Source: Peribacillus sp. FSL P2-0133
GTDB lineage: Bacteria; Bacillota; Bacilli; Bacillales; DSM-1321
Assembly: GCF_037975445.1 (NCBI RefSeq)
Contig: NZ_CP150254.1
Location: 1,734,001-1,798,000 of the forward strand
Reading direction: 5' to 3'
DNA length: 64,000 bases
The position numbers and the translations under genes are program-made. A model generated the notes under the pieces. That model had not been told where the DNA came from. It saw only the letters and a program-made list of their open reading frames with translations, and ran no database searches. The first letter of the stretch is position 1. The number at the start of each line of letters is the position of its first letter. This document shows, one piece after another, positions 37,513 to 55,949 of this stretch.

Positions 37513-38433
37513 GTGAACGGTATTCTTCCATTATGGAAACCCAAGGGATTGACATCCCATGATTGTGTTTTTAAATTAAGAAAGATTTTAAAGACAAAAA
37601 AGGTTGGACACACAGGTACTTTAGATCCTGATGTAACAGGGGTTTTGCCTATTTGTATCGGCAGGGCAACTAAGATAGCCGAATATTTGACAGAAGCCGG
37701 TAAAGCGTATGAAGGGGAAGTGACCCTTGGTTTTTCAACGACAACTGAAGACGCAAGCGGTGAAAAAGTGGAAGAGAAAAAGATTGATCAAGTGATTCAG
37801 CGTAAACGGATTCTTGAAGTGCTGGAATCATTGACTGGAAAAATTGAACAGACGCCGCCGATGTTTTCAGCGGTAAAAGTAAACGGGAAGAAGTTATATG
37901 AATATGCCCGTGCAGGGATAGAAGTGGAGAGGCCTACAAGGGAGGTCACCATCTATGAAATAACCCTTCTCGATGATCGTTCTGAATTTAAAGGGGAAAC
38001 CATTTCTTTTCGTTTTCGCGTCAAATGCAGCAAGGGAACGTATATTCGAACGCTTGCAGTCATGATGGGTGAAGAACTGGGTTTTCCTGCCCATATGTCA
38101 GACTTGACGCGTATTGAATCAGCAGGTTTTAAGCAGGAGGACTGTTTCACATTTGCTGAAGTGGAAGAGTTCATGGAAAGTGGACAAACGGATGAATTTC
38201 TGTTGCCTTTGGAGCGGGGATTATTTCATTTGCCCAAATTTCAGATTAGTGATAAAGTAGCAAAGAAAGTACTTAACGGTGCGGTATTGGAACAAACAAA
38301 GGATGTTGATGTTGAAAAAGGGAAGCCTTTTGTGATGGTCGATCCAGCTGATAGGGCCATTGCCATTTATCAAATACATCCGACAAAAGTGGGATTAATT
38401 AAACCTGTAAAAGTATTGGCACAAGAATTATAG
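37513..38433 (+). CDS. truB: tRNA pseudouridine-55 synthase
   Basis: TruB makes pseudouridine 55 in the T-loop of nearly all tRNAs. The 306-residue product shows the catalytic Asp in GHTGTLDPDVTGVLP (about residues 33-47), the GILPLWKPKGLTSHD N-terminus, and RVKCSKGTYIRTLA, plus a C-terminal PUA-like domain. GTG 37513 follows GAGGTG. A strong terminator separates it from rbfA, so it is expressed from its own promoter or read-through; ribC follows after 33 bp. Confidence 0.98.
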   Translation: MNGILPLWKPKGLTSHDCVFKLRKILKTKKVGHTGTLDPDVTGVLPICIGRATKIAEYLTEAGKAYEGEVTLGFSTTTEDASGEKVEEKKIDQVIQRKRILEVLESLTGKIEQTPPMFSAVKVNGKKLYEYARAGIEVERPTREVTIYEITLLDDRSEFKGETISFRFRVKCSKGTYIRTLAVMMGEELGFPAHMSDLTRIESAGFKQEDCFTFAEVEEFMESGQTDEFLLPLERGLFHLPKFQISDKVAKKVLNGAVLEQTKDVDVEKGKPFVMVDPADRAIAIYQIHPTKVGLIKPVKVLAQEL

Positions 38434-52408: not shown

Positions 52409-53155
52409 GTGGATAATGCACCATTACCAAATGAAAATGAAGGCAAGCAGGAAGGTAAGAATTCAACTTTAATCGAAAAGATTCAGCAGCTGGGGGCTAC
52501 TAATGTTCCGCAACTATCTCAAGACTCAAAAATCCATTGTTTGACGATCATTGGACAAATTGAAGGACATATGCAGCTGCCGCCTCAAAATAAAACGACC
52601 AAATATGAACATGTTATTCCGCAAATTGTGGCAATTGAACAAAATCCCAATATAGAGGGGCTGCTTGTCATTTTAAATACAGTCGGAGGAGATGTCGAAG
52701 CAGGACTAGCCATCGCAGAAATGCTGGCTTCCCTTTCAAAGCCATCCGTCTCGATTGTACTTGGGGGAGGTCACTCGATCGGTGTGCCGATTGCGGTTTC
52801 GTGTGACCATAGCTATATAGCAGAAACAGCAACGATGACGATTCATCCCATTCGTTTGACAGGGCTAGTCATTGGCGTGCCTCAAACCTTTGAATACTTA
52901 GATAAAATGCAGGAAAGAGTCATTAAATTTGTTACGCGGCACTCCAACGTTTCGGAAGAAAGTTTTAAGGATTTAATGTTTGCTAAAGGAAATTTAACCC
53001 GTGATATCGGCACGAATGTAATCGGGGCCGAGGCAGTTGAAATCGGTATGATCGATGATGTAGGAGGAGTAGGCCAGGCCATGAGAAAACTAAATAGCTT
53101 CATGGAAGAAAGAAGGCCAAAAATTGCCGGGGAAGAGGAGGGGCTTCTGCAATGA
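52409..53155 (+). CDS. tepA: ClpP-like translocation-enhancing protein TepA
   Basis: TepA is a ClpP/crotonase-fold serine protease homologue, reported to aid protein translocation and signal-peptide degradation in B. subtilis. The 248-residue product has the ClpP-like core (about 40-230): [20 protein letters not shown], nucleophile Ser in [12 protein letters not shown], and a His in [10 protein letters not shown]. The first 35 residues are polar. GTG 52409 follows AAAGGGG. It overlaps ylzJ by 4 bp. Confidence 0.93.
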
Positions 53156-53379
53156 CGCTTTACACGATCGTTCCTGAAGAAATAATTTTCCCTCATCACC
53201 ATGAGAAGACGGCAAATTTAATAGAAATGATCTATAATGGTGTACATGTAATGGTTGAACATGACGGTGGCCGCACGTTTCGCATTGATCGAATTGTAAG
53301 CACGGATCCTGAAGATTATATGAATGTACACATTCAGCCGGGGGCTGTCATAAATGTGTTCGAACAGATGAATCATTAG
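53152..53379 (+). CDS. ylzJ: YlzJ-like small protein
   Basis: This 75-residue protein matches the position and general form of B. subtilis YlzJ: start [16 protein letters not shown], with a hydrophilic middle and VNVFEQMNH end. Its function is unknown. ATG 53152 overlaps the tepA stop (ATGA), and GAGGAGG (53136-53142 region) lies upstream, so it is co-translated with tepA. It is followed by a weak terminator and the spoIIIE promoter. Confidence 0.85.
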
Positions 53380-53426
53380 TAAAAACGACTAACTGAGGTA
53401 AATTATGATATACTGGAATGAAAATC

Positions 53427-53450
53427 AGCAGCCGCTTGGCTGCTTTATTC
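53427..53450 (+). terminator. Probable terminator after ylzJ
   Basis: AGCAGCC (53427-53433) and GGCTGCT (53438-53444) form a perfect 7-bp stem with a GCTT loop, followed by TTATTC. The U-run is short, so efficiency may be modest. Confidence 0.65.
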
Positions 53451-53498
53451 ATTATATGGGCAAAATGTTCGTCTTAATAATAAATGGTATATATAACA

Positions 53499-53527
53499 AG
53501 GACAGGTACATATATATTTGGTATAAT
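53499..53527 (+). promoter_or_regulatory. Probable promoter of spoIIIE with extended -10
   Basis: AGGACA (53499-53504; four matches to TTGACA) and a perfect TATAAT (53522-53527) are 17 bp apart, with TGG just before the -10 giving the extended TGnTATAAT form. Transcription would begin near 53533-53535, inside the adjacent LexA-like box. Confidence 0.7.
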
Positions 53528-53534
53528 CAGTGAG

Positions 53535-53548
53535 CGAACATTTGTTTC
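53535..53548 (+). promoter_or_regulatory. LexA (DinR) SOS box at the spoIIIE start site
   Basis: CGAACATTTGTTTC matches the Bacillus consensus CGAACRNRYGTTYC at 13 of 14 positions (only the second R is T). It begins 8 bp after the -10, where a bound repressor would block initiation. This is a direct sequence match; regulation by LexA is inferred. Confidence 0.65.
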
Positions 53549-53618
53549 GAGAAGGGAAATCATGTAGTGATGTTGAATAGGAAAGTTAGAATAGTTTCAT
53601 GAAGAATCAGGTGATATT

Positions 53619-55949
53619 ATGGCAAAGAAGAAACGCAGAAAAAAGAATAGTACAGAGAAGTTAAAACTAACGCTTAAATATGAATTGATCGGCCTCACTT
53701 TAATAGGTTTGGCCATCATTGCCATTGCCAAGCTTGGAGCAGTGGGAAACGGGACGGTCTTTTTAATCCGCTTTTTCATGGGGGAATGGTATATCCTCTT
53801 ATTGTTGGGAGCAATTGCAGCTGGCTTCTATTTGATGATAAAGAGGGAGGTCCCTTACCTGTTAAAACGGCAATTCGTCGGGATGTATTTTCTTGTCGCG
53901 AGCATGCTCCTGCTAAGCCATGTGACACTGTTTAACATGCTTGCAGATGGAGGACCGTTTACGAAGCCAAGCGTCATTTCGAATACATGGGAACTATTCT
54001 GGATGGAAGTGACCGGCAAGGCCAGCACAAAGGACCTTGGGGGCGGTATGATTGGAGCGATATTATTTGCAGCCTCATACTTTTTATTCGACGAAGCTGG
54101 ATCGAAAATCGTTTCATTCCTTTTTATCATTGTAGGTGCCGTCCTATTGACCGGGAAAACGTTAGGTGAAACCCTCGGGAAGTTTTTCAAGGGTCTTGGC
54201 GGCTTTTTCAAAAAGCAATGGTCCGCATTCATAGATGATATGAAAACGTGGAATGACGACAAAAAAGAAAAGAAAAAGAATCCCGTGAAAAAGAAGAAAC
54301 GGGAAAAAGATCCGGTGGAGGAAACGGATCAGCCCCTTCATCAAGAAGAGGAAACACAGCAAATGGCGACCGAACGGATCATTTCCAGCTTTGCTGATAA
54401 AGCCTATAGCGACGAAAACGAAATAATTCCCGTAGTTACGGAACCTGCAGCTGAAAGTGCAGAGGAACAGGATGACGCCGTTCCGCCTATGAATTTTACG
54501 GAAGTGGAAAATAAAGAATATCTTTTACCGCCTCTTTCTTTGTTATTGCAGCCCAAAAAAACGGACCAAAGCGGAGAGTACCAATTGATCCATGAAAATG
54601 CGGCAAAACTTGAGCGCACCTTTCATAGCTTTGGAGTGAAAGCGAGAGTCACTCAAGTTCATTTAGGCCCAGCCGTAACCAAATATGAAGTCCATCCGGA
54701 TGTAGGGGTGAAGGTCAGTAAAATTGTCAGCCTATCCGATGACTTGGCCCTTGCACTTGCCGCAAAGGATATTAGGATCGAAGCCCCGATTCCCGGAAAA
54801 TCGGCTATCGGAATAGAAGTGCCTAACTCCGAAGTGGCAATGGTGTCATTAAGGGAAGTTTTAGAGGCCAAAGAAGTTGACAAGCCTGACGCAAAACTGC
54901 AAATAGGCTTAGGGCGGAATATTTCTGGTGAAGCGGTTAAGGCGGAGCTTAATAAAATGCCGCATTTACTAGTGGCTGGTGCTACCGGCAGCGGGAAATC
55001 CGTTTGTATCAACGGGATTATCACGAGTATTCTGATGCGGGCAAAACCGCATGAAGTGAAAATGATGATGATCGATCCAAAAATGGTGGAGTTGAATGTC
55101 TATAATGGAATTCCCCACTTACTCGCACCTGTAGTGACGAATCCAAAGAAAGCTGCACAGGCTTTGCAAAAAGTGGTCAGTGAAATGGAAAGGCGCTACG
55201 AGCTATTTTCTCATTCCGGTACCCGTAATATTGAAGGCTACAATGATTATATTAATCGGTATAACATAGAAGAAGATGCCAAACAACCGCTCTTGCCTTA
55301 TATCGTAGTCATTGTCGATGAGCTGGCAGATTTGATGATGGTCGCCTCAAATGATGTAGAGGATGCCATCACACGGCTTGCACAAATGGCACGTGCCGCG
55401 GGCATCCACTTGATAATTGCCACTCAGCGGCCATCCGTAGATGTAATTACAGGGGTTATTAAAGCGAACATCCCATCTCGGATTGCTTTTAGTGTCTCAT
55501 CAATGACCGATTCAAGAACGATCCTCGACATGGGCGGAGCCGAAAAACTGTTAGGACGGGGTGACATGCTCTTCCTGCCTGCAGGAGCTTCAAAACCGGT
55601 TCGCGTTCAAGGGGCATTTTTATCTGACAATGAAGTCGAGGAAGTTGTCACATATGTCATTTCACAGCAAAAAGCACAATATAACGAAGAGATGATACCG
55701 GATGAAATTGCAGAAACTTCAAATGGTGAAGTCGAAGATAGTTTATACGGGGATGCGGTGTCCTTGATCGTAGAAATGCAGACTGCATCTGTTTCCATGC
55801 TGCAGCGCCGTTTCCGGATTGGCTATACCCGGGCAGCAAGATTGATTGATGAAATGGAAGCGAGGGGAATTGTCGGTCCATATGAAGGCAGTAAACCACG
55901 AAATGTATTGGTTACTAAAGATGAACAGGATGAAGCGCATTCATCATAG
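53619..55949 (+). CDS. spoIIIE: DNA translocase SpoIIIE (FtsK family)
   Basis: SpoIIIE pumps the chromosome into the forespore and clears DNA trapped by septa. The 776-residue product has a basic N-terminus ([12 protein letters not shown]), four membrane segments (about 22-165), a charged linker with Lys-rich and acidic runs (about 195-310), the FtsK motor with Walker [11 protein letters not shown] (about 450) and Walker [14 protein letters not shown], and a C-terminal gamma winged helix ([21 protein letters not shown]) that reads SRS/KOPS-type sequences. AGGTGAT precedes ATG 53619. Position after tepA-ylzJ identifies SpoIIIE rather than the paralogue SftA. The upstream SOS-like box is unusual. 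Confidence 0.97.

Follow-up and report, generated by a model that had tools for sequence, protein, structure and literature searches.

Organization of the spoIIIE locus

The window, i.e., the whole 64,000-nt stretch of DNA analyzed here, contains spoIIIE on its forward strand. The gene encodes an FtsK/SpoIIIE-family DNA translocase of 776 aa, and a ribosome-binding site was recognized by eye upstream of its ATG at 53619. The motor domain scored above the cut-off of PF01580 (261.8 bits), and the match to the NCBIfam FtsK model lay below the cut-off of that model. The window genome has a size of 5.81 Mb, and among the named loci its spoIIIE was most similar to those of Peribacillus simplex RUG2-6 and P. 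frigoritolerans RU293 (99% identity). It encodes a second FtsK-type protein, which we take to be SftA. The features of the locus are as follows:

52409..53155, + strand, open reading frame upstream of spoIIIE, presumably a tepA-like gene
53152..53379, + strand, small gene ending before P1, which we take to be ylzJ-like (assigned by eye and by the ends of homologous open reading frames)
53406..53414, + strand, extended -10 element TGATATACT of the older predicted promoter, P1 (by eye)
53427..53444, + strand, terminator-like GCAGCC/GGCTGC hairpin with a T-rich tail, directly 3' of P1 (structure scan)
53499..53504, + strand, -35-like hexamer AGGACA of the predicted promoter P2 (promoter scan; across 21 genomes, 3 of the 6 bases do not vary)
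53519..53527, + strand, extended -10 element TGGTATAAT of P2, including TATAAT at 53522-53527 (promoter scan; 8 of 9 positions invariant)
53535..53548, + strand, LexA-type operator CGAACATTTGTTTC, predicted to lie over the P2 start site (clade conservation; matrix score 13.36)
53552..53558, + strand, conserved, ribosome-site-like AAGGGAA (clade conservation)
53570..53602, + strand, conserved segment of the leader, which may contain an upstream open reading frame of 10 codons (clade alignment)
53619..55949, + strand, spoIIIE

The extended -10 element of P1 was not in the output of the promoter scan. By eye, similar elements (TGnTATAAT or TATACT) were found 5' of the hairpin in many of 80 named spoIIIE loci, and the arrangement of an extended -10 element closely followed by a terminator-like GCAGCC/GGCTGC hairpin recurred 5' of spoIIIE in many Bacillaceae. 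The hairpin was detected on both strands, with 0.1 such structures expected. Instead of marking the end of the upstream operon, it may serve as an attenuator or as a 5' stabilizer of the P1 transcript.

A LexA-type box at the predicted start of P2

The promoter scan assigned to P2 a 17-nt spacer and 10 of 12 hexamer matches; it returned 3 promoter-like sites in the scanned region, versus 2.7 expected. Spacers of 7 and 70 nt separate the box CGAACATTTGTTTC from the extended -10 element of P2 on its 5' side and from the spoIIIE ATG on its 3' side, respectively. Its sequence and its coordinates were exactly those given in the original prediction, which had also described it as a match to the Bacillus LexA consensus at 13 of 14 positions, directly 3' of an extended -10 element at 53522-53527. 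Against CGAACRNRYGTTYC, we obtained the same number of matching positions, and the TATAAT is indeed preceded by TG and separated from the box by 7 nt. Two named loci, L004 and L010, carry the box letter for letter (consensus score 13). The box starts 13 nt past the first base of TATAAT, a placement that would allow a bound repressor to block P2, itself a predicted promoter.

Downstream of the box, the possible upstream open reading frame begins 11 nt after AAGGGAA. Its peptide is identical in 18 of 21 related genomes, and the frame is broken in L094.

Conservation of the box in the Peribacillus simplex clade

The spoIIIE upstream region was examined in 31 of the 36 genomes of the genus (all except G005, G015, G025, G027, and G032). 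The simplex clade comprised the window genome and 20 relatives (L082-L101), all those whose SpoIIIE N terminus was at least 88% identical. The form CGAAC[AG]TTTGTTT[CT] was present in all 21 genomes, with 83 or 84 nt from the start of the box to the ATG. Twelve of the 14 box positions were invariant; the remaining two showed A or G (8 and 13 genomes) and C or T (15 and 6 genomes). Of the 7 bases immediately 5' of the box, none was invariant, and between the hairpin and the -35 hexamer this was the case for 5 of 46 bases. The hairpin region (53427-53452) was invariant at 22 of 26 positions. The leader 3' of the box was also well conserved (41 of 47 positions), so conservation in this region is not unique to the box.

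Within the first 600 nt of spoIIIE, four-fold degenerate sites had diverged from the window genome by 0.03 to 0.51; this range covers 19 of the 20 relatives, as L094 was read out of frame and gave no usable value. Divergence was low in many of them (0.03 to 0.17 for L082-L093). A lack of conservation in close relatives had been named in the original prediction as speaking against it; we found the box retained in all 21 clade genomes.

In the 10 other genomes of the same genus (L102-L110 and L162), no site with a score of 13.3 or more was found upstream of spoIIIE. Therefore, the box looks like a gain within the simplex clade, which the sequence comparison makes likely, and it appears to have been acquired on P2, below the older P1. 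Of the two histories originally offered for the lineage, evolved or kept, the absence from these 10 genomes favors the former; the distance from the hairpin to the start codon gave it no clean support. This segment comprises 162 to 172 nt in L001-L011, which belong to the clade, and 44 to 89 nt in 7 of the 9 measurable loci among L012-L022 (L012, L013, L015, L016, L017, L019, and L022; L014 and L021 gave no value). Because it measures 185 nt in L018 and 172 nt in L020, the argument from segment length is not clean.

Match strength and other SOS-type boxes

The LexA matrix was built from 11 boxes of the window genome that were classified as SOS type by their genes; recA, uvrB, polY, lexA, and yneA were named via family models, and pcrA and four yolD-like genes were named by eye. 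With 13.36, the spoIIIE box scored higher than two of the genome's own boxes in leave-one-out scoring (lexA1 and pcrA, 12.96) and at the low end of the SOS-type boxes as a whole. Sites this good are expected 0.85 times per 64 kb. The pattern CGAACNNNNGTTYG, with up to 2 mismatches, matched the window 84 times versus 84.8 expected. Likewise, CGAACNNNNGTTYB was not enriched genome-wide (44 matches versus 81 for the reversed control pattern). The clade form CGAACRTTTGTTTY, which was picked post hoc, gave 1 match with up to 1 mismatch in the window versus 0.20 expected, and 17 of 100 shuffles also gave at least one. Since the pattern occurs at the chance rate and 0.85 matrix sites are expected per 64 kb, we rejected match counts alone as a source of significance. 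The top matrix site of the window (38035-38048; 15.9) lies inside a truB-like coding sequence and was taken as a chance match. It is not the single match that raises the spoIIIE box above chance in this sequence comparison, but its conservation across species and its promoter position.

The LexA of the window genome passed the NCBIfam model TIGR00498 (270.6 bits; cut-off, 110.95), and its aligned N-terminal DNA-binding part was nearly unchanged in 8 other genomes. The sites upstream of lexA shared their form in 11 genomes of f1, f14, f26, f27, f31, f33, and f47. The Bacillus-type operators of lexA/yneA and pcrA are the same 14-bp palindrome as the spoIIIE box. In two genomes of the genus g97 (L346 and L349), the identical 14-mer is located upstream of lexA, 102 and 103 nt before the start. 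In the window genome itself, the lexA/yneA and pcrA boxes are one base off the spoIIIE box: the lexA-yneA interval contains CGAACGTTTGTTTC, which is also the spoIIIE box form of 11 of the 21 clade genomes, together with CGAACTTATGTTTG, and CGAACATTCGTTTC is found at the gene read by eye as pcrA. The boxes differ in what they would control, a chromosome pump in the case of spoIIIE versus a regulator, a division inhibitor, and a helicase.

Additional LexA-type sites were observed. Each of the four yolD-like genes of the window genome (by eye; L114, L125, L131, and L147) has a box 29 to 33 nt before its start. Two boxes approximately 40 nt apart (L155:2008-2060) lie just upstream of a second Y-family polymerase gene, and the first Y-family polymerase locus (L154) has no site matching at 12 of 14 positions. 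A LexA-like CGAACATACGTTTG (L146:801-814) is located 33 nt upstream of an OrfB/TnpB-type transposase gene (by eye). Finally, CGAACTACTGTTTT (L151:801-814), 57 nt upstream of a gene read by eye as that of the RNA polymerase delta subunit, may have arisen by chance.

LexA-type boxes at spoIIIE in other Bacillales

Among the 80 named spoIIIE loci, 16 have an upstream site scoring at least 13.3: the simplex clade loci L001-L011 and five others, L025 (Mesobacillus zeae), L026 (M. maritimus), L034 (M. persicus), L059 (Bacillus mediterraneensis), and L064 (Bacillus sp. B15-48). In these five Mesobacillus-type loci, the site reads AGAACGAA[TC]GTTTG; it lies at the stop codon of ylzJ and 5' of the -10 element of P1. 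These sites (12 of 14 matching positions) were initially read as coding sequence. This reading was rejected: around the stop codon, L025 and L059 on the one hand and L026, L034, and L064 on the other are read differently, yet the sites are nearly unchanged, and they were retained as boxes. A family search for g97, a Mesobacillus-type genus that overlaps in part with the five named loci, covered 193 genomes, 191 of which gave a match, and 30 loci were scored. All 7 g97 genomes had the box (14.4 to 16.1 bits), and none of the remaining 23 loci scored above 8.7.

For an order-wide view, the region from -300 to +6 was scored in all genomes of a sample of 150 from 83 genera. This limit was set post hoc, after sites of 10 to 13 bits had been seen near -453 to -553; these were set aside, since the stretches were read by eye as tepA coding sequence. 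Nine genomes reached 13.3 and 12 reached 12, counts that both include the window genome, whose own site set the 13.3 threshold; 141 of the 150 have no spoIIIE site of 13.3 or more. The 12 sites come from f31 and f14 (four genomes each), from f33, f26, and f27 (one each; the f27 site, in G061, is weak with 12.4), and from the window genome (f1). In f14, two of the four genomes reached 13.3 and the other two scored 12.2 and 12.8. In f26, one of three genomes has the box on spoIIIE. All four f31 genomes and the single f33 genome covered carry CAAACA[AG]TCGTTCG squeezed between the -10 element of P1 and the hairpin. Other weak sites were found in two f25 genomes (G059 and G103; 11.6) and, as CAAAC-N4-GTTTG palindromes, in L055, L058, and L068. 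In B. halotolerans (L070) and the similar L079, the best spoIIIE upstream score was only 7.0, and thus there is no box.

With column-permuted matrices, an average of 0.60 genomes reached 13.3, and 2 of 400 permutations attained the observed nine. In the control stretch from -560 to -300, 6 of 150 genomes had a site of at least 12, one of at least 13.3, and none of at least 14. Furthermore, all 12 sites of at least 12 lie within -45 to +25 of an extended -10 element, versus the best sites of 23 of 123 genomes in which that site scores below 9 (exact test, P = 1.8e-8, with related genomes treated as independent, 15 genomes whose best site scored 9 to 12 excluded, and a loose -10 pattern that is present in 135 of the 150 genomes). 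Eight of the 12 (the four f31 sites, the f33 and f26 sites, one f14 site, and that of the window genome) begin 11 to 14 nt past the first -10 base, i.e., over the predicted start site.

When the state of the box was mapped onto a FastTree phylogeny of 153 SpoIIIE proteins (partial sequences; f14 and f26 are absent from the tree), at least four changes were required, a count that does not separate gain from loss. On this tree, the carriers fall into the simplex clade (13 rows), a pair of Mesobacillus-type groups (10 and 2) that may have a common origin, and f31 plus f33 (5).

Discussion

The data suggest that spoIIIE of the Peribacillus simplex clade probably belongs to the SOS regulon, with LexA repressing P2 and DNA damage releasing it. 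A LexA dimer bound at 53535-53548, across the predicted P2 start, would block RNA polymerase. Upon damage, RecA filaments would trigger LexA self-cleavage, P2 would open, and the SpoIIIE level would rise. The added SpoIIIE could then clear closing septa of chromosomes that are damaged or have not segregated, and P1 would provide a damage-independent supply. The two promoters, the transcription start, occupancy by LexA, induction by damage, and the benefit to the cell are inferred from the sequence.

One point against SOS control is that P1 could supply most of the transcripts. LexA might bind the box while read-through from P1 dominates, so that damage would barely shift the SpoIIIE level and the operator would be a weak modulator; we regard this as possible but rather doubtful. 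It fits with the P1-like -10 element and the hairpin that are kept in the clade and are visible in many Bacillaceae, and with the low rank of the box among SOS-type boxes. However, the hairpin directly 3' of P1 resembles a terminator, and retention of the operator across a large divergence argues for a selected effect. It is improbable that the stretch is conserved as an initially transcribed sequence or RNA element with no operator in it. Conservation of the leader below the box would suit such an element, but the RNA 53535-53640 folded worse than its own shuffles (z, +1.48), pointing to a poorly structured leader, and no Rfam family reached its gathering score in the window. On these two grounds we rejected RNA structure as the cause of the conservation. 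In addition, the bases between the -10 element and the box vary freely, and the Mesobacillus-type box, being upstream of the -10 element, falls outside the predicted transcript.

Recognition by another regulator with a similar half-site, such as PurR, for which the box was considered by eye, is very improbable. The PurR box contains CGAAC, which is the left half of the spoIIIE box, but both halves of the latter are conserved, and the same 14-mer precedes lexA itself in two genomes. We also consider it very improbable that a chance match was simply kept by descent. A site of this score is not rare in 64 kb and many of the relatives are close, but even at a four-fold divergence of up to 0.51 the changes in the box were limited to two transitions. 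Moreover, boxes recur on spoIIIE in other lineages, in a number of genomes that permuted matrices seldom reached. Thus, SOS control through P2 is the explanation that we prefer.

The boxes found elsewhere in the spoIIIE promoter region of related bacteria suggest that damage control arose more than once. We lean toward the view that LexA control of the SpoIIIE pump was gained several times independently in Bacillales, always on the spoIIIE promoter and at different places, in parallel to E. coli ftsK. These places would be the P1 start, the region upstream of the P1 -10 element, perhaps the P1 spacer, and the extra promoter P2. The differing positions relative to the promoter speak for separate origins; they may also have arisen by turnover of one old site.

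According to passages of PMC4080785, ftsK of E. coli is served by a dispensable first promoter and by a second one, the SOS promoter dinH; this agrees with the SOS inducibility of ftsK on which the original prediction had drawn. Both systems would thus feature an FtsK/SpoIIIE-family septal translocase with two promoters, the second of which is SOS controlled. They differ in that the second promoter is essential for E. coli ftsK, whereas the predicted P2 is, by eye, clade specific. Furthermore, the E. coli LexA box, given in part of PMC4234289 as CTGTN8ACAG, is unrelated to the Bacillus-type box. A role in rescue is consistent with SpoIIIE being a backup for chromosomes unsegregated before septation and with the increase of septal SpoIIIE foci from 10% to 44% of cells upon RecU depletion in S. 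aureus (both from passages of PMC3584850). The 141 of 150 sampled genomes below 13.3 count against a general rule, as do two other sources: PMC8457756 assigns ftsK/spoIIIE of C. thermocellum to a different predicted regulon, that of Xre_0026, and the main text of the C. difficile LexA study contains no occurrence of spoIIIE or ftsK (PMC4234289).

Among the titles, abstract beginnings, and passages covered, a set outside which the B. subtilis regulon paper lies, we recognized no report of LexA control of spoIIIE in Bacillales. The LexA regulon of B. subtilis was reportedly defined by Au and coworkers in 2005, and to our knowledge it does not include spoIIIE. It relies on the same repressor family and the same consensus, so the difference lies in the membership of spoIIIE. 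This membership would be new, as would the recurrent pattern if it holds; the novelty is not proven.

So far, SpoIIIE has been studied as a sporulation motor and as a vegetative backup. If damage raises SpoIIIE in some Bacillales, then damage, delayed division (via yneA), and septal chromosome rescue would follow a logic shared with E. coli and reached separately, and work on B. subtilis only would have missed this link between damage and chromosome rescue. Natural comparisons are available between lineages that have the box and those that lack it. If the multiple gains are real, damage-induced septum clearing would form a recurring arm of the SOS response, one not seen in the B. subtilis model.
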